Below, in pieces: positions 42,462 to 56,144 of a stretch of DNA of 64,000 nucleotides. The stretch comes from Citricoccus sp. SGAir0253. GTDB lineage: Bacteria > Actinomycetota > Actinomycetes > Actinomycetales > Micrococcaceae. The DNA lies in the NCBI RefSeq assembly GCF_005877055.1, contig NZ_CP039424.1, positions 2,976,001 to 3,040,000 of the forward strand. The letters are read 5' to 3'. How positions within the stretch are numbered: the stretch's first letter is position 1; every line of letters starts with the position of its first letter. The position numbers were made by a program, and so were the translations under genes. A model generated the notes under the pieces. It was not told the DNA's origin. It did not search any database and worked only from the letters and a program-made list of their open reading frames with translations.

Positions 42462-43961
42462 TCAGCCGCGCGGCACCGCCATGTACTTGACCTCGAGGAA
42501 CTCCTCGATGCCCACGCGGCCGCCCTCCCGGCCCAGGCCCGAGGCCTTGACGCCGCCGAAGGGCGCCGCGGGGTTCGAGACGATGCCGGTGTTGAGCCCG
42601 ACCATGCCGACCTCGAGTGCCTCGCCCACGCGGAAGCCCCGGTCGACGTCCTGGGTGAAGAGGTATCCCACGAGGCCCCACGGGGTGTCGTTGGCCAGCC
42701 GCACGACCTCCTCCTCCGTGTCGAACGGGATCACGGGGGCGACGGGACCGAAGATCTCCTCGCCCATGAGCTGGGACCGAGGGTCGACGTCGGACAGGAC
42801 GGTGGGGGCGTAGAAGTACCCCGGCCGCTCGGGCCGGGAGCCGCCGCAGACCACCGTGGCGCCCCGGGCGACGGCGTCGTCCACGAGCTCCTGCACCTTG
42901 GCGAGTGCCTTCTCCTCGACGAGCGGCCCCACCTCGGTGCCGTCCCGGGCGCCGTCACCCACGGCCAGCGACCCGAGGCGGTCGGCCAGGCGCCGGGAGA
43001 ACTCGTCGGCCACCGAGCGGTGCACGAACAGCCGGTTGGCCGCGGTGCAGGCCTCCCCCATGTTGCGCATCTTCGCCGTGACGGCACCCTCCACCGCGCG
43101 GTCCAGGTCCGCGTCCCCGAACACGATGAAGGGCGCGTTGCCGCCGAGCTCCATGGACGAGCGCATCACGTGCTGGGCGGCCTGCTCCAGCAGGCGGACG
43201 CCCACCTCCGTGGAGCCGGTGAAGCTGACCTTGCGGGCGATGCCGCTGGCCATCCAGTGGCCCACCACGGACGAGGCGCTGGACGTGCAGACGACATTGA
43301 GCACGCCCCGGGGCAGGCCGGCCTCCACGAGGATGTCCACCAGCGCCAGCGAGGACAGCGGGGTGAGGGCGGCCGGCTTGAAGACCATGGTGCAGCCGGC
43401 CGCGATGGCCGGGCCGATCTTGCGCGTGCCCATGGCCAGCGGGAAGTTCCAGGGCGTGACCAGCACGCACGGGCCCACCGGCTCGCGGGAGACGAGGATC
43501 CGGTTCCGGCCGTCCCCCGTGGTGGTGTGGTCCCCGCCGATGCGCACGGCCTCCTCGGAGAACCAGCGGAAGAACTCGGCGGCATAGGCCACCTCCCCCC
43601 GGGCCTCGGCCAGGGGCTTGCCCATCTCCGTGGTCATCACCAGGGCCAGCTCGTCCTGGCGGGACATGATGAGGTCGTAGGCGCGGCGCAGGATCTCGCT
43701 GCGCTCCCGGGGCGGCGTGCGGCCCCACGTCCGCTGGACGCGGCCGGCGGTCTCGATCGCGCGCCGGGCCTCCTCGGGGCCCCCGTCCGCGACGGTGGCG
43801 ATGACCTCCTCGGTGGCGGGGTTGACCACGTCGAAGCGGGCCCCGGAGGCGGCCTCGCCCCACTGCCCGTCGATGAACACGCCGGTGCTGACGGCGGAGA
43901 CCGCGCGCCGGGCCTCCGCGGAGGTGCGGGCGGCGGGGGTGGTGTGGGCGTTGACGGTCAC
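42462..43961 (-). CDS. Succinate-/aspartate-semialdehyde-type aldehyde dehydrogenase
   Basis: A 499-residue NAD(P) aldehyde dehydrogenase: TPWNFPLAMGTRKIGPA (about 169-185), FTGSTEVGVRLLEQ near 238, Glu in MELGGNAPF near 260, catalytic Cys in MGEACTAANR near 295, and the C-terminal PFGGVKASGLGREGG. It closely resembles GabD and DoeC, which oxidise succinate or aspartate semialdehyde. Last gene of an operon behind the class III aminotransferase, a pairing that converts a diamino or omega-amino acid to a diacid. In an ectoine pathway it would turn aspartate semialdehyde into aspartate. Confidence 0.87.
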   Translation of the reverse strand: MTVNAHTTPAARTSAEARRAVSAVSTGVFIDGQWGEAASGARFDVVNPATEEVIATVADGGPEEARRAIETAGRVQRTWGRTPPRERSEILRRAYDLIMSRQDELALVMTTEMGKPLAEARGEVAYAAEFFRWFSEEAVRIGGDHTTTGDGRNRILVSREPVGPCVLVTPWNFPLAMGTRKIGPAIAAGCTMVFKPAALTPLSSLALVDILVEAGLPRGVLNVVCTSSASSVVGHWMASGIARKVSFTGSTEVGVRLLEQAAQHVMRSSMELGGNAPFIVFGDADLDRAVEGAVTAKMRNMGEACTAANRLFVHRSVADEFSRRLADRLGSLAVGDGARDGTEVGPLVEEKALAKVQELVDDAVARGATVVCGGSRPERPGYFYAPTVLSDVDPRSQLMGEEIFGPVAPVIPFDTEEEVVRLANDTPWGLVGYLFTQDVDRGFRVGEALEVGMVGLNTGIVSNPAAPFGGVKASGLGREGGRVGIEEFLEVKYMAVPRG

Positions 43962-46900
43962 GATGGGTCCTCTCGTCCGGGCTGCGGGTCGGGCTGGGGG
44001 TCAGGCTGCGGATGCGGCTCGGCCGGCGGGCGCGCGGCGGCGCCCGTCGGCTCCGGATCCGCCGGCGCGGTCGGCGCGGGGTCCAGGAGCTGGGCCAGGT
44101 GCAGGCCGGGCCGGCCGGCGTCGAGCTGGTCGACCTGCCGGGCGCAGGAGAAGCCGTCGGTGAGCACCGCGGTCCGCGGCCCCGCGGCGCGCAGCGCCGG
44201 GGCCAGGGCGTTCTCCGCCACCTGCATGCTCACAGCGTAGTGCTCGCGCTCGAAGCCGAAGTTGCCGGCCACCCCGCAGCAGCCGGTGGCCTCCACGATG
44301 TCCGTGACACCGGCGGCCGCCAGCGCGGTCCGCTGCGCCCCCTGCCCGAAGACCGAGTACTCGTGGCAGTGCGTCTGCAGCACGACCCGCCCGGGGACCG
44401 GACGGCCCGGCCGGGGCGACCACCCGCCGGCGGAGCGCTCGGCCACGTGGGCGGCGAAGCTGCGCACCCGGGCGGCCACGCGGCGGGCCCGGTCCGTGGG
44501 GACCAGCTCGGGCAGGTCCTTGCGCAGGGCCGCGGCGCAGCTGGGCTCGACGACGACGATCGGCCGGTCCGTGCCGTCGTCGAGCACCTCCGCGGCCCGG
44601 GTGAGCATCGCCCGCGCGGGGCGCAGCTGGCCGGTGGAGATCCAGGTCAGCCCGCAGCAGGCCTCGGCCGAGCATTCCACGGACCCGCCGGTGCCGGCGA
44701 GCACCCGGGCCGCGGCCCCGGCCACCTCGGGACGGAACCCGCGGGTGAAGGTGTCGACGAACAGCACGGTGTCCTCCGCGCCCGGTCCGGTGACGCCCGC
44801 ACCGGCCGGACCGCCGGCGGCGACCGTGGCCGCCGCGCCGACCTCCCGGCGCCACGCCCCGGACGGGGCGAGGCGCGGCAGCCGGCGCCGGGTGGTCAGC
44901 CCGCCCAGGGCCGCGGCGGTCCGGCCCAGCGGGGTGGCCAGCACGGCGTTCACGAGCGGGGCGATCCGGCCGGTGACCGCCAGCCACCGGGGCAGCCAGC
45001 CGAGCGAGTAGTGCGAGAGCGGGCGACGGCGGCCCCGGTAGTAGTGGTCGAGGAACTCGGACTTGTAGGTGGCCATGTCCACGCCGGTCGGGCAGTCGGT
45101 GGAGCAGGCCTTGCAGGACAGGCACAGGTCCAGCACCTCGCGGGCCTCCTCGGACCGCCACCCCTCCTCGACGGTGCGGGCGCCCCGGACCACCTCCTGC
45201 AGCACGCGGGCGCGGCCGCGCGTGGAGTCCTTCTCGTCCCGGGTGGCGCGGTAGCTCGGACACATGACCCCGCCGGTGTCCGCGCGGCACCGCCCCACGC
45301 CGATGCAGCCCTGCACGGCGTGCACCCAGGCGCCGGCGCGCTCGTCGTCGGCGCGCTCGTCCTCGGTGCGCCCGCCCTCGGGGGCCCCGGGCCGGGCCCC
45401 CAGGGGCCGCAGCTCGAAGCTCGTGCGCCAGGGCCGGTCGGGCACACCCGCCAGGGACAGGTGGGCATCCATCGGGTCCGGGGCGGTGACCGAGCCGGGG
45501 TTGAGGATGCCCGCCGGGTCCCAGAGCCGCCGGAACCCGGCGAAGGCGGCGAGGACCTCCGGGGAGTACATGATCGGCAACAGCTCCGACCGCGCCCGGC
45601 CGTCGCCGTGCTCCCCGGACAGCGACCCGCCGTGGCGGACCACCAGCTCCGCCGCGGCGCGGGTGAAGTCGCGGAAGACGGCCCGCCCGGCCTCCGTGCG
45701 CAGGTCGTAGGTGATGCGGATGTGCATGCACCCGGCCCCGAAGTGGCCGTACATGACCCCGTCCAGCCCGTGCGCGTCGAGCAGGGCCCGGAGGTCCGTG
45801 AGGTAGTCGGCGAGCCGCTCGGGGGCCACCGCGGAGTCCTCCCACCCGGGCCACGACTCCCCGCCGGAGGCCAACCGGGAGGAGAGCCCGGCCCCGTCCT
45901 CGCGCACCCGCCACAGCGAGGCCCGCTCCAGGGGGTCGGGCACCGCCCGGCCCTCCACGAGCCGGCCCTCGCGCCCCAGCCGGGCGAGCAGCCGCTCGGC
46001 GGCGGCCGCCACCTCGTCCGCGTCGTCGCCGTCGAGGTCCACGAACAGCCACGCATCCCCCGCGGGCAGGCCGAGCACGGAGTCCGCGCCGCGGCGCAGG
46101 CGCATGGTCTCCACGATGGCCCGGTCGATCCCCTCCACGGCCGCGGGGGAGGACTCGAGGATGGCGGGCACGTCCCGCGCGGCGTCCACGACCCCGGCGT
46201 AGCCCAGGCACACCAGCAGGGCGCTCGCCGGCCGGGGCACCAGCCGCATACGGGCGCGCACCACGAGGGCGCAGGTGCCCTCGGTGCCCACCAGCGCGCG
46301 GGCGACGTCCAGGTGCCGCTCCGGCAGCAGGTGCTCCAGGTGGTAACCGGAGACCTGGCGGGAGATCCGGCCCAGCTCCCGCCGGAAGGCGGCGAGGTGG
46401 TCCCGGGCGAGCCCGCGCAGGGCCTCCTCCAGCTCCGCGGCGCGCGCCGCGGAGGCGGCGTCCGCGGGGTCGGTGGCGCGCAGGCCCGTGGTCGTGGCCG
46501 TGAGTCGCGCGCCGTCGGAGGTGACCACGTCGAGCTCCACCACGTGGTCGGAGGTCCGGCCGTGGCGCACCGAGTGGTTGCCGCACGCGTCGTTGCCGAT
46601 CGCCCCGCCCACCGTGGCCCGGGTCCGAGAGGACGGGTCCGGGGCGAAGGTGAGGCGGCCACCGGTGGCGGCCTCCACCTCCCGGGTCAGTTCCGCCAGC
46701 ACCATGCCGGGCTCCACGTCCACCGTGCCGGCGGCCTCGTCGATGCCGTGGACGCGGTTCAGGTGGCGGGAGAGGTCCAGGACCACGCCCGGGCCCACCG
46801 CGTTGCCCGCCATGGACGTGCCCCCGCCGCGGCCGATGAGCGCGGTGCCGGTCTCGCGGCAGGCCACGACGGCGGCGCGGACCTCCTCCGCGGAGCGCGG

Positions 46901-47140
46901 GAACACCACGGCCACCGGGGCGACGCGGTAGTTGGAGGCGTCGTAGGAGTACTCGGCCAGGCGCCGGGGCGAGGCGTCCGGGTCCAGCCCGGCCGCCCGC
47001 AGGCGGTCGACCACGTCGACCACGGCGGAGCCCGGGCCGGCCCCGTCCCGGAGGGCGGCCTCCTCGCGCGGCCCGGTCCCGGGGAGGGGCCCTGGGAGGG
47101 TCTCGGCGGCGTCCCGCATGCGGTCCCCCAGCCCCGTCAC
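43958..47140 (-). CDS. FAD-linked and 4Fe-4S oxidoreductase (D-2-hydroxyacid dehydrogenase type)
   Basis: A 1060-residue multidomain protein. The PCMH FAD-binding domain (about 40-260; GRGGTSMAGNAVGPG, GNDACGNHSVRHG) is followed by a C-terminal FAD-oxidase domain ending MYGHFGAGCMHIRI and SLSGEHGDGRARSEL. Cys clusters follow near 610-630 (CIGVGRCRADTGGVMC) and 675-685 (CLSCKACSTDC), and two CCG domains near 830 and 955. This is the Dld/GlpC-like fusion that oxidises a D-2-hydroxyacid and feeds electrons to quinone. GTG 47140 overlaps the aminotransferase stop (GTGA). The divergent neighbouring D-2-hydroxyacid dehydrogenase could make or share its substrate. Confidence 0.85.
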   Translation of the reverse strand: MTGLGDRMRDAAETLPGPLPGTGPREEAALRDGAGPGSAVVDVVDRLRAAGLDPDASPRRLAEYSYDASNYRVAPVAVVFPRSAEEVRAAVVACRETGTALIGRGGGTSMAGNAVGPGVVLDLSRHLNRVHGIDEAAGTVDVEPGMVLAELTREVEAATGGRLTFAPDPSSRTRATVGGAIGNDACGNHSVRHGRTSDHVVELDVVTSDGARLTATTTGLRATDPADAASAARAAELEEALRGLARDHLAAFRRELGRISRQVSGYHLEHLLPERHLDVARALVGTEGTCALVVRARMRLVPRPASALLVCLGYAGVVDAARDVPAILESSPAAVEGIDRAIVETMRLRRGADSVLGLPAGDAWLFVDLDGDDADEVAAAAERLLARLGREGRLVEGRAVPDPLERASLWRVREDGAGLSSRLASGGESWPGWEDSAVAPERLADYLTDLRALLDAHGLDGVMYGHFGAGCMHIRITYDLRTEAGRAVFRDFTRAAAELVVRHGGSLSGEHGDGRARSELLPIMYSPEVLAAFAGFRRLWDPAGILNPGSVTAPDPMDAHLSLAGVPDRPWRTSFELRPLGARPGAPEGGRTEDERADDERAGAWVHAVQGCIGVGRCRADTGGVMCPSYRATRDEKDSTRGRARVLQEVVRGARTVEEGWRSEEAREVLDLCLSCKACSTDCPTGVDMATYKSEFLDHYYRGRRRPLSHYSLGWLPRWLAVTGRIAPLVNAVLATPLGRTAAALGGLTTRRRLPRLAPSGAWRREVGAAATVAAGGPAGAGVTGPGAEDTVLFVDTFTRGFRPEVAGAAARVLAGTGGSVECSAEACCGLTWISTGQLRPARAMLTRAAEVLDDGTDRPIVVVEPSCAAALRKDLPELVPTDRARRVAARVRSFAAHVAERSAGGWSPRPGRPVPGRVVLQTHCHEYSVFGQGAQRTALAAAGVTDIVEATGCCGVAGNFGFEREHYAVSMQVAENALAPALRAAGPRTAVLTDGFSCARQVDQLDAGRPGLHLAQLLDPAPTAPADPEPTGAAARPPAEPHPQPDPQPDPQPGREDPS

Positions 47141-48432
47141 GCGCCGGCGGCGGGGACGGCGGCGGCACCGGCGGGGACGGCCCCGACGACGGACGCCACG
47201 GCCGCCTCGAGGCGCTCCAGGCCCAGCGCGATCTCGCCCTCCGTGACCACGAGGGCCGGGATGAGGCGCACCACGTTGCCGGACGGCCCGCACGTCAGGG
47301 TGAGCAGCCCGTGCCCCGTGGTGGCCTGCTGGACGGCGGTGGCCGTCGCGGCGTCCGGGGTGCCGTCCGCGGCCGTGAACTCGATACCCTGCATCAGGCC
47401 CAGCCCGCGGACGTCCCCGATGACCGGGAACCGGCGCTGGACCTCCCGCAGCCCCGCCTGGAGCTGCTCACCGCGCACCCGGGAGTTCTCCACCAGGCCC
47501 TCGTCCCGGACGACGTCCAGGGTGGCCACGCCGGCCGCGGCGGAGACCGCGTTGCCGCCGTAGGTGCCGCCCTGGGAGCCCGGCCAGGCCTTGGCCATGG
47601 TCTCGGTGGGTGCGGCGATCGCCGAGATGGGGAAGCCGGAGGCGATGCCCTTGGCGGTGATGAGGATGTCCGGGACGGCGGCGGAGTGCTGGTGGCCCCA
47701 GAACCTCCCGGTGCGCCCGACGCCGGCCTGCACCTCGTCGACGACCAGCTGGATGCCGTGGTGGTCGGCCCGCTCCCGCAGTCCCTCCAGGAACGCCGGC
47801 GGCGTGGGCAGGTAGCCCCCGTCCCCCAGGGCGGGCTCGATGAGGAAGGCCGCCGTGTCCTCCGGGGCGGTGCGGGTCCTCAGCAGGTAGTCCAGCTCCC
47901 GCAGGGCGAACTCGACCGCGGTCGCCTCGTCCCAGCCGTAGCGGTAGGCGTAGGGGAAGGCGGACATGTGCACGCCGGCCATCAGGGGGGCGAACCCGGC
48001 CGAGAACCGGGTGCCGGCCGTGGTGAGGGAGGCGGCCGCGACCGTGCGGCCGTGGAACCCGCCCTGGAAGACGACGACGTTCGGCCGCCCCGTCGCCATG
48101 CGGGCCAGCCGGACGGCGGCCTCCACCGCCTCCGAGCCGGAGTTGGCGTAGAACACCGAGTCCAGGCCGGCGGGCAGCACCTCGCCCAGCCTCCCGGTGA
48201 GCTCCAGCAGCGGCCGGTGCATCACGGTCGTGTACTGGGCGTGGATGATCCGGCCCACCTGCTCGCGGGCGGCCTCCACCACCCGCGGATGGCAGTGGCC
48301 GGTGCTCGTCACGCCGATGCCGGTGGTGAAGTCGAGGTACTCGCGCCCGTCGGTGCCGAAGATCCAGCTGCCGAGGGCGTGGTCCACGACCACGGGGGTG
48401 GCCTGCTTGAGGACGGGGCTCAGGGACGTCAT
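47137..48432 (-). CDS. Class III aminotransferase (GabT/DoeD-like)
   Basis: A 431-residue PLP enzyme: TTGIGVTSTGHCHPRV (36-51), ANSGSEAVEAAVRLAR (96-111), FHGRTVAAASLT (127-138), DEVQAGVGRTGRFW (232-245) and PLP Lys261 in LITAKGIASGFP. The family transfers omega-amino groups, as in GABA and diaminobutyrate transaminases. With ectoine hydrolase nearby, a DoeD role (2,4-diaminobutyrate to aspartate semialdehyde) is likely. ATG 48432 is chosen because GGAGG is nine bases upstream; ATG 48441 sits directly on that SD. First gene of the aminotransferase/FAD-FeS/ALDH operon, under operator 4. Confidence 0.85.
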   Translation of the reverse strand: MTSLSPVLKQATPVVVDHALGSWIFGTDGREYLDFTTGIGVTSTGHCHPRVVEAAREQVGRIIHAQYTTVMHRPLLELTGRLGEVLPAGLDSVFYANSGSEAVEAAVRLARMATGRPNVVVFQGGFHGRTVAAASLTTAGTRFSAGFAPLMAGVHMSAFPYAYRYGWDEATAVEFALRELDYLLRTRTAPEDTAAFLIEPALGDGGYLPTPPAFLEGLRERADHHGIQLVVDEVQAGVGRTGRFWGHQHSAAVPDILITAKGIASGFPISAIAAPTETMAKAWPGSQGGTYGGNAVSAAAGVATLDVVRDEGLVENSRVRGEQLQAGLREVQRRFPVIGDVRGLGLMQGIEFTAADGTPDAATATAVQQATTGHGLLTLTCGPSGNVVRLIPALVVTEGEIALGLERLEAAVASVVGAVPAGAAAVPAAGA

Positions 48433-48458
48433 GCCGCACATCCTCCCGTCCGCATCGA

Positions 48459-48476
48459 CTTATTGTCAACAATAAG
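48459..48476. promoter_or_regulatory. GntR-type operator 4 (shared divergent)
   Basis: CTTATTGTCAACAATAAG, 18 bases, between the divergent class III aminotransferase (start 48432) and D-2-hydroxyacid dehydrogenase (start 48499). It can serve both units and is the longest of the six sites. Confidence 0.8.
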
Positions 48477-48498
48477 CAGGGCGACCTAGGGTGGGGGC

Positions 48499-49503
48499 GT
48501 GGAGACCATGGAGAACAGGACATGCCGCCCCGGACCGCGGCCCACGGTGGTCGTGCTGACCACGGCCACCACCCCGCCCCCGTACAACGCGGCCCTCCTG
48601 GAGGACCGGGCGGAGGTCGTCTACACCGATGCGGAGGGGCTGGGCGGGGCCCTGCCCGGGGCCGAGGTGCTCCTCGTCTGGGACTTCTTCTCCACCGCCC
48701 TGCGGGACGCGTGGGAGCACGCCGACGCGCTGCGCTGGGTGCACGTGGCCGCGGCCGGCGTGGACTCCCTGCTCTTCGACGGGCTGCGCGACTCGGACGT
48801 CCTGGTCACCAACGCCCACGGCGCCTTCGACGGGCCCATCGCCGAGTTCGTCCTGGCCTCGGTCCTGGCGCAGGACAAGCAGCTCCACCTGAGCAAGGAC
48901 CTGCAGCGGCGGTCCACGTGGCGGCACCGGGAGGTCCGGCGCACGGCCGGGCAGCACGCGCTCGTCGTCGGGACCGGCGGCATCGGCCGGGCCACCGCGC
49001 GCCTGCTCCGTGCAGTGGGCCTGGAGGTGCGCGGCGCGGGCCGCACGGCGCGCGAGGACGACCCCGACTTCGGCACCGTGGTCGCCAGCGCGGACCTGGC
49101 CGAGCACGCCGGGTGGGCCGACCACCTCGTGCTGATCGCGCCGCTGACCGAGGCCACCCGCGGCCTCCTGGACGCGGAGGTGCTGGGGCGGATGAAGCCC
49201 ACCGCCCACGTGGTGAACGTGGGCCGCGGGGCGCTCGTGGAGGAGCCGGCGCTGGTCGAGGCGCTCCGGTCCGGGCGGATCGCCGCGGCCTCCCTGGACG
49301 TGTTCGCCGAGGAGCCCCTGCCCCCCGGCCATCCGTTCTGGGCGATGGAGAACGTGCACGTGTCCGCCCACATGAGTGGGGACGTGGTGGGCTGGCGGGA
49401 CACGCTGGCGGACCAGTTCGCCGACAACCTGGACCGCTGGCTCGCGGGCTCCGTCCCGGCCCACCGCGTCGACAAGGACCTCGGCTACGTCCGCCGGTCC
49501 TGA
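48499..49503 (+). CDS. D-isomer-specific 2-hydroxyacid dehydrogenase
   Basis: A 334-residue enzyme. The NAD motif VVGTGGIGRATARLL is at about 155-169. Catalytic residues are Arg in NVGRGALV (near 238), Glu in FAEEPLPPG (near 272) and His in SAHMSGD (near 293). It interconverts a 2-oxoacid and a D-2-hydroxyacid with NAD(P)H. GTG 48499 and ATG 48508 are both possible starts. Divergent from the aminotransferase operon that contains a D-2-hydroxyacid-oxidising flavoprotein, so the two could form a reduction/oxidation pair on one metabolite. Substrate unknown. Confidence 0.85.
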   Translation: METMENRTCRPGPRPTVVVLTTATTPPPYNAALLEDRAEVVYTDAEGLGGALPGAEVLLVWDFFSTALRDAWEHADALRWVHVAAAGVDSLLFDGLRDSDVLVTNAHGAFDGPIAEFVLASVLAQDKQLHLSKDLQRRSTWRHREVRRTAGQHALVVGTGGIGRATARLLRAVGLEVRGAGRTAREDDPDFGTVVASADLAEHAGWADHLVLIAPLTEATRGLLDAEVLGRMKPTAHVVNVGRGALVEEPALVEALRSGRIAAASLDVFAEEPLPPGHPFWAMENVHVSAHMSGDVVGWRDTLADQFADNLDRWLAGSVPAHRVDKDLGYVRRS

Positions 49504-50164: not shown

Positions 50165-50872
50165 GTGCACACCGTCGTCATGCTCTACCCCGGCCACAGC
50201 GCCGAGGACGAGTTCCGCGCCCTCGAGGACCGGGTCCCCGGCGCCTCCCTCCCCGTGGTGCACACGTGGGAGGGCGGCACCGCCCACGACGTGCCGGCCC
50301 TGCTGGCCCTGGGCTCCCGGCAGCAGCTGGCCAGCCCCGCCGCCCGGGCCCGGGCCCTCGCCCCGGACGCGGTGATGTGGGCCTGCACCTCGGGCAGCTT
50401 CGTGTACGGCTGGGAGGGCTGCCACGAGCAGGCGGGGTGGGTCCGGGAGGCCGCGGGGGCACCCGCCTCGTCGACCTCCCTGGCCTTCGCCGCGGCGGTG
50501 CACCACCTCGGCCTGCGGCGCGCGTCCGTCGCGGCGACCTACCCGGGGGACGTCGCGGCCCACTTCGTGGACCTCCTGGAGCGGGACGGCATCACGGTGA
50601 CCGCCCTGTCCTCGTACGACGTCCCGAGCGGCGAGGACGCGGGCGCCCTGGGCCCGGACTGGGTGCGGCGGGTCGCCGGGGCGGCGGACCTCGCCGGGGC
50701 CGAGTGCCTGCTGGTCCCGGACACCGCCCTGCACACGATCGAGGTCCTGCCGGAGCTGGAGGCCGCCGCGGGCGTACCCGTGCTGACCGCCAACCAGGTC
50801 ACGGCGTGGCACGGGCTCGCGCTGGCCGGCCACCCCGCCCGCGCGCCCGGGCTCGGCGCCCTCTTCGCCTGA
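50165..50872 (+). CDS. Asp/Glu racemase / maleate isomerase-like protein 1 (EutA-like), one catalytic Cys missing
   Basis: A 235-residue protein of the maleate isomerase / arylmalonate decarboxylase / EutA superfamily. The first active-site Cys is Cys74 in WACTSGSFVYG. At the second active-site position the sequence is VPDTALHT, with Asp186 where the neighbouring paralogue has Cys197. The shared ending PVLTANQVTAW confirms the alignment. GTG 50165 has AGGAGGAGGG upstream. Enzymes with one Cys in this fold include decarboxylases, so it may not be an isomerase. In ectoine clusters EutA homologues act on hydroxyectoine-derived steps; the activity here is open. Confidence 0.78.
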   Translation: MHTVVMLYPGHSAEDEFRALEDRVPGASLPVVHTWEGGTAHDVPALLALGSRQQLASPAARARALAPDAVMWACTSGSFVYGWEGCHEQAGWVREAAGAPASSTSLAFAAAVHHLGLRRASVAATYPGDVAAHFVDLLERDGITVTALSSYDVPSGEDAGALGPDWVRRVAGAADLAGAECLLVPDTALHTIEVLPELEAAAGVPVLTANQVTAWHGLALAGHPARAPGLGALFA

Positions 50873-50973: not shown

Positions 50974-51732
50974 TCAGCCGTCCGCGGCCCAGCCCGCCGC
51001 ACCGAGCACCTGGTCCCGCGCCGTGAGCCCCAGGCCCAGGCGGCGCAGCCCGGCCCACGCGGTGACCTGGTTGGCCGTGAGCACCGGCTTGCCCAGCTCC
51101 GCCTCGAGCGGGGCGATGATGTCGAAGGTCGGCAGGTTGGTGCACGAGACGAACACCGCCTCGGCCTCCGGGCGGTCCGCCTCGCGCACGAGCCCGGCGG
51201 TCACGCGGTACGGCACGTGCCAGATCAGGTGGTCGAGGCCGAGGCCGGCGGTGCCCACCACGGAGTGGCCCTCGGCGGCGAGGAAGGCCTCCAGCCGCTC
51301 GGTCAGGCGCGGGACGTAGGGCGTCGCGATCGCCACCCGCGCCAGGCCCAGGGCGTCCAGCGCCTCCAGGAGCGCCTCGGACGTCGTCACGGCCGGGGCG
51401 CCCACCTCCTCCGCGATGGCCGCGGAGATGCGCCGGGCGCCGTCGACCCCGTGGACGAAGCTGCCCGAGGCGCAGGCGAAGACGACGGCCTCCGGCTCCA
51501 CCGCGGCCAGGGACCGGGCCGTGGAGCGGATCTCCGCGTCGTCCCCCAGCGCGCTCGCCATCAACTCGTCCACGACGAGCGGGTGGTACGGGGTCCGTGC
51601 CATGGCCAGGGAGACGCCGGCCGGCATCCAGCGCCACAGTTCGCGGTCCAGCGCCATGTCGTAGGGGTCGACCACCCCGATGACCCGGTCGGGCGCGGGC
51701 CCCTTGGGGATGCGTCCCGTCGTGTCCGGCAT
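50974..51732 (-). CDS. Asp/Glu racemase / maleate isomerase-like protein 2 (EutA-like)
   Basis: A 252-residue member of the maleate isomerase superfamily with both active-site Cys: Cys87 in FACASGSFVHG and Cys197 in VSCTNLPTFD, then PVLTANQVTAW. Maleate isomerase and racemases of this fold use the two Cys as acid/base or nucleophile. It is a diverged paralogue of the gene at 50165, convergent with it. ATG 51732 lies 24 bases downstream of operator 6. In eut-type ectoine clusters the racemase-like EutA occupies a similar position, so a stereochemical inversion of an ectoine-derived intermediate is the leading guess. Confidence 0.8.
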   Translation of the reverse strand: MPDTTGRIPKGPAPDRVIGVVDPYDMALDRELWRWMPAGVSLAMARTPYHPLVVDELMASALGDDAEIRSTARSLAAVEPEAVVFACASGSFVHGVDGARRISAAIAEEVGAPAVTTSEALLEALDALGLARVAIATPYVPRLTERLEAFLAAEGHSVVGTAGLGLDHLIWHVPYRVTAGLVREADRPEAEAVFVSCTNLPTFDIIAPLEAELGKPVLTANQVTAWAGLRRLGLGLTARDQVLGAAGWAADG

Positions 51733-51889: not shown

Positions 51890-52342
51890 TCAGCCCATGG
51901 CCGCCATGGCGGAGGTCTCCACGTTGGCCTTGGTCGGCACCTTGCGGTCCGAGCCGTCCTGCAGGACGAGCTCGTAGACGCCGTTCTCGTCGTGGGTCTC
52001 CCGGCCGGTCACGGGCGGGTTGAACACGCAGGCCATGCGCAGCTCGGTGGTGGCGCGCACGGTGTGCTTCTCGTGCCCGTCGAGCAGGTACATGGTGCCG
52101 TCGCGCAGCTCGTGCACCTCGCCGGTCTCCTCGTTGGTGAGGGTGCCCTCGCCCTGGACGCAGTACACGGCCTCGATGTGGTTCGCGTAGTGGAAGGTCG
52201 AGGTGGTGCCGGCGTAGATCACGGTGTCGTGCAGGGAGAAGCCGACGCCCTCCCCGGCGAGCACCATGCGGCGCGAGCGCCAGGTCTCGGACTTGATGTC
52301 GCGCTCGGTCTCGTTCAGGTCGTTCAGGTTGGTCACCAGCAT
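51890..52342 (-). CDS. ectC: L-ectoine synthase EctC
   Basis: A 150-residue cupin enzyme. The catalytic residues known for EctC fall at identical numbers: Glu57 in [12 protein letters not shown], Tyr85 in TMYLLDG and His93 in EKHTVRA. It cyclises N-gamma-acetyl-diaminobutyrate to ectoine with loss of water. ATG 52342 has GAAAGGAGCC upstream. The C-terminus extends about 15 residues past the usual end ([17 protein letters not shown]). Last gene of the ect operon, 53 bases after ectB. No ectD hydroxylase is seen in the window. Confidence 0.95.
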
Positions 52343-52395
52343 GGGTGGCTCCTTTCGGTCGGTCGAAGCGTGGGTCGGTGGCGCGGGGCGCCTGC

Positions 52396-53694
52396 TCAGG
52401 CGTCCAGCAGCTCGCGGTCGCCGGTGCGGTACTGCACGTCGGCACCGGTCACGGTGGCCACCGCGTCGGCGATCAACCGCAGGCCGCGCTCGAGCTGGTC
52501 CTTCGGGGTGGTGAGCGGCGGCATCACCTTGAGCACCTCGTCGTCCGGACCGGAGGTCTCCACGAGCAGGCCGTGGGCGAAGGCCTCGCGGGCCACCTTG
52601 CCGGCCACCTCGACGTCCTCGAAGCGGATGCCGGCCAGCAGGCCGCGGCCGCGGACCGAGGCGCCCTCCACGGACGCGGCGATCTGCTCCAGGCCCGAGT
52701 GCACGGTGGCGATGGCCTCGGCGAGGGTGCCGCGCTCGAAGGAGTCGTCGGCCCAGAACTCGCGCAGCGCGGTGGTGGCGGCCACGAACGCGGGGTTGTT
52801 GCCGCGGAAGGTGCCGTTGTGCTCGCCCGGGGCCCACTGGTCCAGGTCGCCGCGGAACAGGGTCAGGGCCATCGGCAGGCCGTAGCCGGAGATGGACTTG
52901 GACAGGCACACGATGTCCGGGGTGAAGCCGGCCTCCTCGAAGCTGAAGAAGGTGCCGGTGCGGCCGCAGCCGGCCTGCACGTCGTCCACGATCAGCAGGA
53001 TCTCGTGCTTGCGGCACAGCTCGGACAGCCCGCGCAGCCACTCGGCGCGGGCCGCGCGCAGCCCGCCCTCGCCCTGGACGGTCTCGACGATCACCGCGGC
53101 CGGCTTGTCCACGCCGGAGCCGGAGTCCTCGAGCACTCGCTCGAGCCACAGGAAGTCGGCGGTCTCGCCGTCGAAGTAGTCGTCGTAGGGGATCTTGGAG
53201 CTGTTGGTCAGCGGGATCCCGGCGCCCTTGCGCTTCATGGAGTTGCCGGTCACGGACAGCGAGCCCAGGGTCATGCCGTGGAACGCGTTGGTGAAGGACA
53301 GGATGTGCTGGCGGCCGGTGACCTTGCGGGCCAGCTTCAGGGCCGCCTCCACGGTGTTGGTGCCCGTCGGACCGGGGAACATCACCTTGTAGTCCAGCCC
53401 GCGCGGGTCGAGGATCAGCTCCTTGAAGGTCTCGAGGAACTCGCGCTTGGCCGGGGTCATCATGTCCAGGGAGTGCACGGGGGCGCCGCTGGTGAGGTAC
53501 TCGACCACGGCGGCCTGCATCTTCGGGTGGTTGTGCCCGTAGTTCAGGGCGCCGGCCCCGGCGAAGAAGTCCAGGTACTCGGTGCCGTCCTCGGCGGTCT
53601 GGGTGGACCCGGAGGCGTGGCTGAACACGGCGGGCCAGCTGCGGCTGTAGCTGCGGACCTCGGACTCGGTGGTGGTGAAGATGTCGTTCGTCAT
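52396..53694 (-). CDS. ectB: Diaminobutyrate-2-oxoglutarate transaminase EctB (internal start of the ectA-ectB frame)
   Basis: A 432-residue class III transaminase if begun at its own ATG 53694, which has GAAAGGGA seven bases upstream. PLP Lys266 is in [31 protein letters not shown] (106-123) and [15 protein letters not shown] (236-250) are typical EctB. It makes 2,4-diaminobutyrate from aspartate semialdehyde. The frame is open upstream through ectA without a stop, so the protein may also be made as the C-terminal part of a fusion. The good SD and normal EctB start sequence (MTNDIF) argue that separate EctB is made at least in part. Confidence 0.85.
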
Positions 53695-54294
53695 GGTGCG
53701 TCCCTTTCGTCGGGGGAGGGAATGGCCTGTGGTGGGCGACGCGGCGGTCGGCTCAAGGACGTCGCCCCGGTCCCGGACCGCGACCGGCCGCGTGGGGGCG
53801 ATCCGGTGCAGGAACTCGGTGTCGTGGCCGTCCGGGTACATCCGCTCGGTGAACAGCGGCGTGACCTCGTGGCCGGCGCCGTGCCGGCGGGCGAGGCCCG
53901 TGAACAGCGCGATGGAGGCCTCGTTGTCCGCGGTGATGGTGGTCTCCACGGCCTCGGCGGAGGTGCGGGAGACCAGCTCCTCCAGCATGCGCGAGGCCAG
54001 CCCGTGGCCCCGGGCGGCCTCGGCCACCGCCACCTGCCACACCATCAGCGTGCCCGGCGCGTCGGGGCGCAGGTACCCGGTCACGAAGCCCACCGGCGCG
54101 CCGTCGAGCTCGGCGATCACGGAGGTGTCCGCGAAGTCGCGGCACCACAGCAGGTAGGCGTACGAGGTGTTGACGTCCAGGGTCCGCGAGTCCCTGGCCA
54201 TCTGCCAGAGGGCGGCCCCGTCGGCGGGCCGGGGGCGCCGCAACGTGGGGGTGGTCGGTCGGGTGGTCAGTGGTGTGTCTGCATCAGCTGCCAT
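52396..54294 (-). CDS. ectA: In-frame EctA-EctB fusion (diaminobutyrate acetyltransferase plus transaminase)
   Basis: From ATG 54294 the frame runs 632 codons to the ectB stop. Residues 1-168 are EctA, a GNAT acetyltransferase ([57 protein letters not shown]) that acetylates diaminobutyrate. Residues about 169-200 are a linker with lower third-position GC (CTT, ACA, CAT, CGA) that looks like former intergenic DNA; residue 201 is the usual EctB Met. I checked every codon from 53695 to about 53790 and found no stop, so ectA has no terminator of its own. Real fusion, readthrough, or a sequencing indel in the linker are the options. Confidence 0.75.
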
Positions 54295-54595
54295 CCATTC
54301 CAACCTAACGAGATCGATCTCGATCTCAACTCGGGAAGGGCCGGATTCCGGGGTTTCCGGCCCCTCGGCACCCCTCCCGTGGCGGGGTGCGGACCCCCTT
54401 GGATCCCTTGCGCCATGAGGTTGCGCGGGCAAATACGACGTACACGGAAGGACTGCTGGGCATCGTTATCATTCCGTTATATTCACCCCCCGGCCGGCGG
54501 GCCGGGAGGACCTCCCCGGGGCCGTCGCCCGCGTGCCGGGCGTCACCTCCCCCGCTCCCCCGCTCCCCGACGGCGGGCTCCGCTACATTGCTGGA
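54295..54595. promoter_or_regulatory. ectA / thioesterase divergent intergenic region
   Basis: 301 bases without a gene. CGAGATCGATCTCG at 54309-54322 is a perfect 14-base palindrome 15 bases before ectA, overlapping a second GATCTC half, so it is a good operator candidate. An AT-rich island at 54463-54485 (GTTATC and GTTATA) gives minus-strand -10-like GATAAC and TATAAC elements, but no matching -35. The remainder holds the plus-strand thioesterase promoter, which I cannot pinpoint. Confidence 0.5.
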
Positions 54596-55555
54596 ATGAC
54601 CGCTTCCACCCCGGACCGCCAGCCCTCCACCCCGGCCGTGGGGACCGACACCCTCGAGGCCCCCGCCCCGGACCTCGACGCCCCGGGGCGGCAGGGTGGC
54701 CGCCGCGGGCTCGTGCTGGGCCGCACGGAGCAGCTGATGCGCGTGCACCTGCTCCGCGACCCGCAGCACGGTGCGGCGGGCGCGAGGACGGGGACGATGG
54801 GCACCGGGCCGTGGGTCCTCGACCCGGACGGGCGGCCCTTCGGGGCCGCGGCGGCGGTGATCATGGACAACACCCTGGCCACGTCCCTGCACGCGGCGGG
54901 CCCCGAGCTGGACTGGATCGTCACCACGGAGCTGCTGCTCAACGTGCTGCGGCCGCTGCCGGCGGACGGCACCGTGCTCGAGTCCTGGACCCGGGCGCGC
55001 GTGGCCGACGCCACGGGCGGGATGGCCTCCGGCACGCTCGTGGGGCCGGACGGCACGGAGTACCTCCAGGCGACCGGCTGGTTCCAGGGCGTCGAGCGCC
55101 ACGACCCGGCCGCCGTCGAGCACTTCACCGCCATGGCACGCCTGCCGCTGGGCCCGGACACGGAAGTCCCCCTGGACCGGATCCTGGGGGCGAGGCCCAC
55201 GACGCCGGCCCCGCCGGCCGGGCGGCCGGCGGTCACCGAGGCCTTCGGGGCCGGATGGGGCTTCGAGCGCAAGGACGAGCTGCGCAACCCGCACGGGGCC
55301 GTCCACGGCGGGGCCCTGAGCATAATGGCGGCCATGGCCGCCCAGCAGGCCATGCCGGACCACGCCGGGTTCGACCTGCAGTCGCTGCGGGTCATGTTCC
55401 TGCGGCCGGCCGGCGGCGCGATCGCCTCGCGGGTGCGGGTCCGGCATGCGGGCCGCTCGCTGCGCGTGGTGCAGGTGGAACTGGCCGGCGCCGAGCACGG
55501 GCCCGGCGCGAAGCCGTTCGTGCAGGCCGAGGCGGTGTTCCGGCCGGCCCAGTGA
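54596..55555 (+). CDS. PaaI-type hotdog thioesterase family protein
   Basis: 319 residues. The C-terminal part has a hotdog domain with NPHGAVHGGALSIMAAMAAQQA (about 233-254) and LQSLRVMFLRPAGG, as in acyl-CoA thioesterases. The N-terminal part (about 55-180), with PFGAAAAVIMDNTLATSLHAA and TTELLLNVLRPL, looks like a second, diverged hotdog, so the protein is probably a tandem double-hotdog thioesterase. ATG 54596 follows CTGGA; an earlier frame from 54533 lacks an SD. Divergent from ectA and convergent with carD. Substrate unknown. Confidence 0.75.
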   Translation: MTASTPDRQPSTPAVGTDTLEAPAPDLDAPGRQGGRRGLVLGRTEQLMRVHLLRDPQHGAAGARTGTMGTGPWVLDPDGRPFGAAAAVIMDNTLATSLHAAGPELDWIVTTELLLNVLRPLPADGTVLESWTRARVADATGGMASGTLVGPDGTEYLQATGWFQGVERHDPAAVEHFTAMARLPLGPDTEVPLDRILGARPTTPAPPAGRPAVTEAFGAGWGFERKDELRNPHGAVHGGALSIMAAMAAQQAMPDHAGFDLQSLRVMFLRPAGGAIASRVRVRHAGRSLRVVQVELAGAEHGPGAKPFVQAEAVFRPAQ

Positions 55556-55586
55556 GGGCGGGCCGGAGCGCCCCGACCCGGACGGG

Positions 55587-56144
55587 TCAGGCGGCCTGCC
55601 GGGCGTCCTCGCGCTGGGCCTTCGCCGCCTTGCCGCGGTCCAGGCCGAGGTCCTTGAGCGGGACCCCGTCGATCGCCTGGGCCATGACGTCCTCGGCCTC
55701 GGCGGCGGAGATGTCGAGGACGATGGCCACCTCGGCGGCGAGCACGTCCACGGCCTCGCGGTGCAGCATGCGCTCGGCCATGGAGAGCTCCTTGACCTCG
55801 TGGCGGCGGTGCAGGTCACGGACCACCTCGGCCACGCGCGGCAGGTCACCGGTGGCCAGCTTCTCCTGGAACGCCTTCAGGCGGCGGGACCACTGCTCCT
55901 CGACGTGCTCGCTGGGCTTCGCCAGCAGGGACATCAGCTTGCGCACGGTGGTGTGGCTGCTGACGTCCCGGACGCCGATGGTCTTCACCATGGACTCGGG
56001 CACGGAGATGCGCAGCCCCTTGTCCTGGATCTCCAGCTCCACGTAGGCGACGTCCTTGCCCTTCAACTGGCGCACCTTGCGGTCCAGGACGACCGCGGGA
56101 CCGTGGTGGGGGTGGACGACGAACTGACCGGGAACCAGACGCAT
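55587..56144 (-). CDS. carD: CarD-family RNA polymerase-binding regulator
   Basis: A 185-residue protein. The N-terminal RNA-polymerase-interacting domain (about 1-65: RLVPGQFVVHPHHGPAVVL, YVELEIQDKGLRISVPES) is followed by a helical DNA-binding domain with VRKLMSLLAKPSEHVEEQWSRR and the AERMLHREAVDVLAAEVAI helix. CarD stabilises open complexes at rRNA and housekeeping promoters in actinobacteria. ATG 56144 (MRLVPGQ) is the family start; the frame extends to 56201 without an SD. The C-terminal tail is longer and more charged than in mycobacterial CarD. Confidence 0.88.
   Translation of the reverse strand: MRLVPGQFVVHPHHGPAVVLDRKVRQLKGKDVAYVELEIQDKGLRISVPESMVKTIGVRDVSSHTTVRKLMSLLAKPSEHVEEQWSRRLKAFQEKLATGDLPRVAEVVRDLHRRHEVKELSMAERMLHREAVDVLAAEVAIVLDISAAEAEDVMAQAIDGVPLKDLGLDRGKAAKAQREDARQAA

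Follow-up and report, generated by a model that had tools for sequence, protein, structure and literature searches.

EctA and EctB share one stop-free reading frame, with a candidate internal start for ectB, in Citricoccus sp. SGAir0253 and in other lineages

In Citricoccus sp. SGAir0253 the genes ectA and ectB, whose enzymes take part in making ectoine, a protectant against salt stress, are joined in a single open reading frame, inside which a candidate start for ectB is found. The window, that is, the whole stretch of 64,000 nucleotides that was analysed, holds this ectAB frame at positions 52396 to 54294 of the minus strand (632 codons plus the stop). We consider it probable, at about two chances in three, that this is a real fusion, in which one gene would give a bifunctional EctA-EctB protein and also, by internal initiation, free EctB. 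Comparison with other genomes points to a fusion of known enzymes that close relatives also have and that recurs in several lineages, with the internal start retained.

Results

A single frame encodes two complete enzyme domains

The preliminary description had claimed that no stop codon separates ectA from ectB, and this holds: translation of positions 52396 to 54294 (minus strand) gives 632 codons without an internal stop, the sole stop being its end, and both domains are complete. A bifunctional protein is therefore predicted from a single frame. The first domain, EctA (L-2,4-diaminobutyrate acetyltransferase; residues 18-167, positions 53794 to 54243, minus strand), scores 177.1 bits against TIGR02406, above the curated cut-off of 120.6, and covers positions 1-155 of the 157 of the profile; acetyltransferase activity is predicted. 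Among solved structures it matches PDB 3d3s (E 5e-29) and 6sk1/6slk (E 7e-28). The second, EctB (diaminobutyrate--2-oxoglutarate transaminase), runs from its own ATG to the stop (residues 201-632, positions 52396 to 53694, minus strand). The match itself lies at residues 204-613, with 632.1 bits against TIGR02407 (cut-off 552.2; positions 1-411 of 412 covered), and PDB 9s1q (E 2.5e-149) and also 6rl5 are matched among solved structures. The putative PLP lysine is Lys466 of the fusion (codon at 52897 to 52899, minus strand), which aligns with the lysine of 9s1q that is an alanine in 9s1p and which, by likeness to Lys274 of Paenibacillus lautus EctB in the excerpts of PMC6915088, would anchor the cofactor.

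The ectoine synthase gene, ectC, is separate (positions 51890 to 52342, minus strand; NF009806, 194.4 bits, cut-off 128). It lies directly downstream on the same strand, 53 nt after ectB, and has its own Shine-Dalgarno (SD) sequence, AAAGGAG. The arrangement is thus that of an ectABC operon in which ectA and ectB are one stop-free frame instead of separate coding sequences. The order of the domains, EctA then EctB, is the opposite of the pathway order. When the window's genome (3.56 Mb in 3 contigs, 99.99% complete) was searched, a single EctA match was obtained at E up to 0.001, inside the fused frame, and each fused genome of the genus likewise has one EctA above the cut-off. With no stop to part the two domains, and with the search yielding no second EctA, every EctA would be joined to an EctB, barring proteolysis or frameshifting.

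Several other frames were noted around the fused gene. A 1233-codon open frame (52345 to 56046, plus strand), antisense to the fused gene and extending beyond it, is most likely a by-product of the high GC content. Next to ectC are two Asp/Glu-racemase-like proteins (50165 to 50872, plus strand; 50974 to 51732, minus strand), whose matches to EutA (ectoine utilization) and arylmalonate decarboxylase fall well short of the cut-off, with 66.5 and 100.2 bits where EutA requires 318. Also close to the ect genes, positions 42462 to 49503 encode three proteins whose matches stay under the equivalog cut-offs (succinate-semialdehyde-dehydrogenase-like, class III aminotransferase and D-2-hydroxyacid dehydrogenase), and a large ORF (43958 to 47293) looks by eye like a FAD/Fe-S oxidase; the region is possibly a catabolic cluster.

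The linker is spacer-like and predicted to be disordered

A linker of roughly 30 residues had been described between EctA and EctB. We measured 33 (residues 168-200, 99 nt, positions 53695 to 53793, minus strand). Its codon use had been called intergenic-like, which is a fair description: GC at codon positions 1/2/3 is 0.76/0.70/0.82 in the linker, compared with 0.69/0.55/0.96 in EctA and 0.65/0.47/0.99 in EctB, and with a third-position GC below that of both genes the linker is still spacer-like. In an AlphaFold2 model of the fusion (monomer only, 78 aligned sequences; mean pLDDT 82.8, pTM 0.66), 45 of the 64 ten-residue blocks reach 85 or more, while pLDDT is about 30 over residues 171-200, so that this stretch is predicted to be disordered; residues 337-362, within EctB, fall below 50 too. 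Given this predicted disorder and a dN/dS of 1.95 in the window's clade (few codons), which speaks for freedom from protein-level constraint, the linker is tether-like. At the RNA level no unusual structure was seen in the linker (z 1.61 over 141 nt and -1.09 over 71 nt). A scan of positions 53500 to 54600, of a kind that says little for actinobacteria, found no promoters or terminators. A TGA is present in another frame of the window's linker, and the in-frame TGA that unfused relatives have two codons 5' of the ATG reads CGC in the window.

The fusion recurs in the genus, in other actinomycetes and on rhizobial plasmids

The same fusion was looked for in close relatives, as the preliminary description had proposed, and 4 of the 8 genomes of the genus, the window's included, proved to be stop-free. 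EctA is present in seven of them: it is fused in G000, G002, G003 and G004 and separate in G001, G005 and G007, and G006 gave neither an EctA match nor a close EctB. G002, G003 and G004, of which two carry the name Citricoccus and one Micrococcus sp., show the architecture of the window's frame at 83-84% identity, with linkers of 42 nt against 99 nt in the window. In the three unfused genomes a TAG stands three to four codons past the EctA domain, and the spacer measures 165-167 nt. Named fused copies are those of Citricoccus sp. CH26A, Citricoccus sp. WCRC_4 and Micrococcus sp. Bu38, and C. zhacaiensis (L070) has separate genes. G002, G003 and G004 each carry two more EctB-like transaminases (L010, L011, L012, L018, L019 and L020; 51-53% identity), none of which was found in the window's genome by the same search.

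Outside the genus, fused frames were found in 3 of 9 genomes of the Yaniella group, including Yaniella halotolerans DSM 15476 (L033/L058), and in 32 of the 37 genomes of an actinomycete genus, g194 (which includes G754), the other 5 having separate genes. The family sample of 149 genomes contains 7 with the fusion and 34 (manual count of the table) in which EctB was matched at E 1.8e-187 or better. A stop-free frame was seen in 1 of the 74 genomes with a match in the order sample (396 searched) and in 2 of the 94 in the class sample (394 searched). Fusions hidden behind large open frames scored as EctB only were looked for at 40 sampled places in these two samples: none is fused, 38 are separate and 2 have no adjacent EctA. 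Altogether, EctB follows EctA at 141 distinct loci, which include 39 distinct fused sequences, a share that is inflated because fused genera were sampled on purpose. As a control, an EctB-EctC fusion occurs at 0 of 136 loci. One apparent EctB-EctC case (L181) was rejected as an artefact, the alignment having overrun the EctB stop. The gap between ectA and ectB at L137 (G498) is -7, apparently a short overlap of the genes in different frames and another closely packed arrangement.

Phyla beyond the actinomycetes were sampled through 68 named loci and through plasmid matches. Adjacent EctA and EctB are found at 65 of the named loci, and 4 of these are fused, all in the window's family. Among the 11 plasmid loci examined (from the 40 matches listed of 335), 2 are fused, 8 are separate and 1 has no EctA. 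The fused plasmid genes are those of Mesorhizobium sp. AR07 (WP_319946014.1, 633 aa) and Sinorhizobium fredii GR64 (WP_080604305.1, 632 aa), at 1420-3321 of L257 and 1417-3315 of L258. Their EctA parts score 158.9 and 157.5 bits (cut-off 120.6) and their EctB parts 622.4 and 609.9 bits (cut-off 552.2). RefSeq already holds each of these frames as one CDS, named ectB only; because naming goes by best match, fusions of this kind are hidden, as both rhizobial ones are under plain ectB. When the S. fredii gene served as a DNA query, 3 of 88 records covered at least 80% of it, one being a second Mesorhizobium plasmid (in two pieces). Downstream of the ectoine synthase gene on the AR07 plasmid there is an IS66 transposase.

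Origins, selection and the chance of an open spacer

The gene tree was built from 84 rows, all actinomycetes, with the rhizobial genes left out; g194 is represented in it by 11 of its 30 main-clade fused sequences and all 5 unfused ones. The fused state requires five changes on this tree, and the starred branches force at least four, in a count that does not distinguish gain from loss. We read these changes as lying in the window's genus, in Yaniella, in the g194 main clade and in a pair of sequences within g194, G877/G878. The window's branch falls outside the other six of its genus, and one fusion with a later loss could not be separated from two fusions by the AU test (p 0.30 with protein sequences and 0.36 with DNA). 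The genus may thus have acquired the fusion once, with a reversal, or twice; the differing linkers (99 and 42 nt) would fit two events without proving them.

In the fused lineages purifying selection acts on EctA as well as on EctB. Their respective dN/dS values are 0.24 and 0.22 for the genus, 0.14 and 0.06 for Yaniella and 0.08 and 0.08 for g194. For the linker they are 1.95 in the genus (2.24 for the three short linkers of 14 codons alone) and 1.11 in Yaniella, each from few differences, and 0.34 in g194, where the linker shows some protein-level constraint.

How much does an open spacer mean in such DNA? Of the 99-nt stretches in the window 74.8% lack a stop, as do 65% of random 99-nt stretches at the GC content of the linker, and one open linker in a single genome of GC-rich DNA is unremarkable, no more than chance. 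That fused linkers are multiples of three in length is no evidence either, being merely a consequence of how a fusion was defined. For g194, whose main clade is the one sampled most densely, the picture is another: the 36 nt before the ATG are open in 30 of 30 main-clade genomes, and the simulated probability that a free spacer stays open there, with the SD held fixed, is 0.0003-0.05 if it evolves at the full third-position rate, 0.009-0.08 if that rate is halved and 0.05-0.16 if it is cut to a quarter; all these simulated probabilities are rough, because the assumed ancestor was one present-day linker. The corresponding values are 0.10-0.27 in the window's clade and 0.48-0.67 in Yaniella, and therefore retention in those two is not evidence of selection.

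The candidate internal ectB start

EctB had been said to keep its own start and SD, and both are present within the fused frame: an ATG at 53692 to 53694 and, inside the linker, the SD-like sequence GAAAGGGA at 53701 to 53708 (minus strand). All 4 fused genomes of the genus, the window's included, and all 3 unfused ones have the identical GAAAGGGA; since it is equally conserved where the genes are separate, it may be inherited from that state and not actively kept. Its duplex with the anti-SD has an energy of -8.9 kcal/mol, which none of the 42 other in-frame ATG or GTG codons of the ORF reaches and which 57 of 1775 arbitrary positions of the ORF do, so by energy the site is not rare. For the three fused relatives of the genus, the duplex energy of the site is reached by 1-2 of 30-32 in-frame ATG or GTG codons and by 42-97 of 1718 positions. 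Over the other 38 fused actinomycete sequences, 0 to 2 of 16-32 such codons reach it. Weaker sites are found in G877/G878 (-6.2 kcal/mol, matched by 169-170 of 1670 positions), and one of the two rhizobial sites is strong (-11.1) and that of the S. fredii plasmid weak (-5.6).

In g194 the codons GAA, AGG and AAC before the ectB ATG occur in 29, 30 and 30 of 30 main-clade sequences. AGG makes up 50 of the 1136 Arg codons of 32 sequences, and 30 of the 50 are at the SD site; of 29 conserved Arg columns, the SD site alone is AGG throughout, and one other is codon-invariant (CGG). In 30 genomes the 9 nt of the SD differ pairwise by 0.0074, the 27 remaining bases ahead of the ATG by 0.253 and third positions by 0.300. 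The spacing between SD and ATG in g194, about 12 nt, is longer than usual. The SD of the window's clade always contains GGA, a codon that none of the 50 conserved Gly columns in the EctA and EctB domains uses throughout. The Yaniella SD carries GGG, which is used throughout in 1 of 47 conserved Gly columns. Thus an SD and a start conserved beyond what the protein needs, as is expected of an internal in-frame start, are strongly indicated in g194; the window's clade is consistent with such a start, but its unfused genomes are equally conserved, and the sites of G877/G878 and of the S. fredii plasmid are weak.

Discussion

We propose that the stop of ectA was lost, upon which reading would run on through what had been the ectA-ectB spacer and enter ectB in frame. 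The product would be a 632-residue protein consisting of the EctA acetyltransferase, a flexible tether and the EctB transaminase. Because the SD and ATG of ectB persist in the linker, ribosomes could also start there and yield free EctB. Each EctA would then be matched by at least one EctB: EctA would be anchored to EctB oligomers, free EctB would fill the remaining places, and from such a mixture EctB oligomers could form with fewer EctA domains than EctB subunits. We infer that both proteins accumulate and that the benefit is one of tethering or of stoichiometry. The preliminary description had already considered that the frame might allow both a fusion and free EctB, and the comparative evidence (SD codons and divergence in g194, duplex energies) favours this option; a dual product is likely on these grounds. 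We advance more tentatively a wider proposal, namely that EctA-EctB fusions arose independently in several actinomycete lineages and in rhizobia, that selection keeps the SD in the linker, and that the design is a dual one, in which the fusion would serve channelling or stoichiometry and free EctB would complete the oligomers.

If the 632-residue protein were the sole product, the SD and ATG of ectB would be a relic and the SD codons would merely encode linker residues. The absence of a stop between the domains, the dN/dS of 0.34 of the g194 linker with the protein-level constraint that it suggests, and the weak SD sites of some fused copies would all agree with this; we nevertheless hold it to be improbable, since the rare AGG is kept in 30 of 30 g194 sequences exactly at the SD, since the SD of g194 has diverged by 0.7% against 25% for the remaining linker before the ATG, and since in the window's clade the invariant GGA of the SD has no counterpart among 50 conserved Gly columns. 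It is far less probable still that an assembly or base-calling error in the window's linker hides truly separate genes. A one-base error could conceal a stop such as the TGA in another frame of the linker, and the 99-nt linker does differ from the 42-nt linkers of the relatives, but an artefact is unlikely because three other genomes of the genus have stop-free frames, albeit with that different linker, as do other lineages; moreover, the assembly has 3 contigs and is 99.99% complete, and the in-frame TGA of unfused relatives is CGC here.

Two further explanations are compatible with a dual product. According to one, the loss of the stop was neutral: a GC-rich spacer drifted open, and the fusion is tolerated without benefit, the functions of the domains being unchanged. 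Open stretches of 99 nt are common in the window, the linker of its clade evolves freely (dN/dS 1.95) and would persist with a probability of 0.10-0.27 without selection, and one fusion with a later loss is not separable from two (AU p 0.30 and 0.36). Against it stand at least four changes on the gene tree, the retention of the fusion in 30 g194 main-clade genomes (P 0.0003-0.05 at the full rate, up to 0.16 at a quarter rate), the 0 of 136 in the EctB-EctC control and the fused plasmid genes of rhizobia, in another phylum, and we find this explanation rather doubtful. The other is channelling, in which the tether would set the active site of EctA beside that of EctB and diaminobutyrate would pass directly. 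EctB and EctA catalyse consecutive steps of the pathway, according to PMC5924519 and PMC6344544, and it is this consecutive pair that is fused, EctB-EctC giving 0 of 136; however, the linker is predicted by the monomer model to be disordered and is unconserved in the window's clade, and direct passage seems unlikely to us.

Ectoine synthesis is an industrial pathway and a model for the study of osmotic adaptation. Natural EctA-EctB fusions are ready-made constructs for testing whether joining two steps improves flux, and they allow a clean comparison of fused genes in which the downstream ribosome-binding site has been retained.

Comparison with known systems

No report of an EctA-EctB fusion was found in the openly available literature searched, and no mention of one was seen in the excerpts of PMC6915088, PMC5924519, PMC7824335, PMC6344544 and PMC9872684. 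The excerpt of a genome announcement for the WCRC Citricoccus names ectoine synthase and the Ehu transporter. EctB of P. lautus is a homotetramer and two other EctB proteins are reported as hexamers (PMC6915088), an EctA crystal structure is a homodimer, and EctB controls the flow of precursor into the ectoine route (PMC5924519).

A natural fusion of consecutive enzymes of compatible-solute synthesis is described in the excerpt of PMC7824335: the fused GMT-DMT methyltransferase of glycine betaine synthesis in Actinopolyspora halophila. It is likewise natural and joins consecutive steps, but it belongs to another pathway and consists of other enzymes than EctA and EctB, and no ect fusion is named in that excerpt. 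With the canonical ectABC operon, as outlined in the excerpt of PMC5924519, the window shares gene order, enzyme families, a separate ectC and an SD before ectB; the canonical operon has a stop between ectA and ectB, whereas the EctA of the window would be obligatorily within the 632-residue protein.

The unfused ectA-ectB genes of the genus (G001, G005, G007 and those of C. zhacaiensis) belong to the same operon and have the same GAAAGGGA before ectB. The fusions of Y. halotolerans and g194 resemble the window in their stop-free order of EctA, linker and EctB and in the SD and ATG before EctB, but their linkers are unrelated by eye and they fall in separate clades of the gene tree. The rhizobial fusions, too, have both domains in one CDS, a linker ATG preceded by a purine-rich site, and an ectoine synthase gene downstream; they differ in phylum, in linker and in sequence (35-37% identity for EctA, 53-54% for EctB), and their RefSeq name gives the transaminase alone. 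With regard to the internal start, genes such as cheA (CheA-L/CheA-S), infB and clpB also use one that is in frame, each giving a long protein and a second one shortened at the N-terminus. In those genes the short form is a truncated domain array, whereas here it would be the whole second enzyme.
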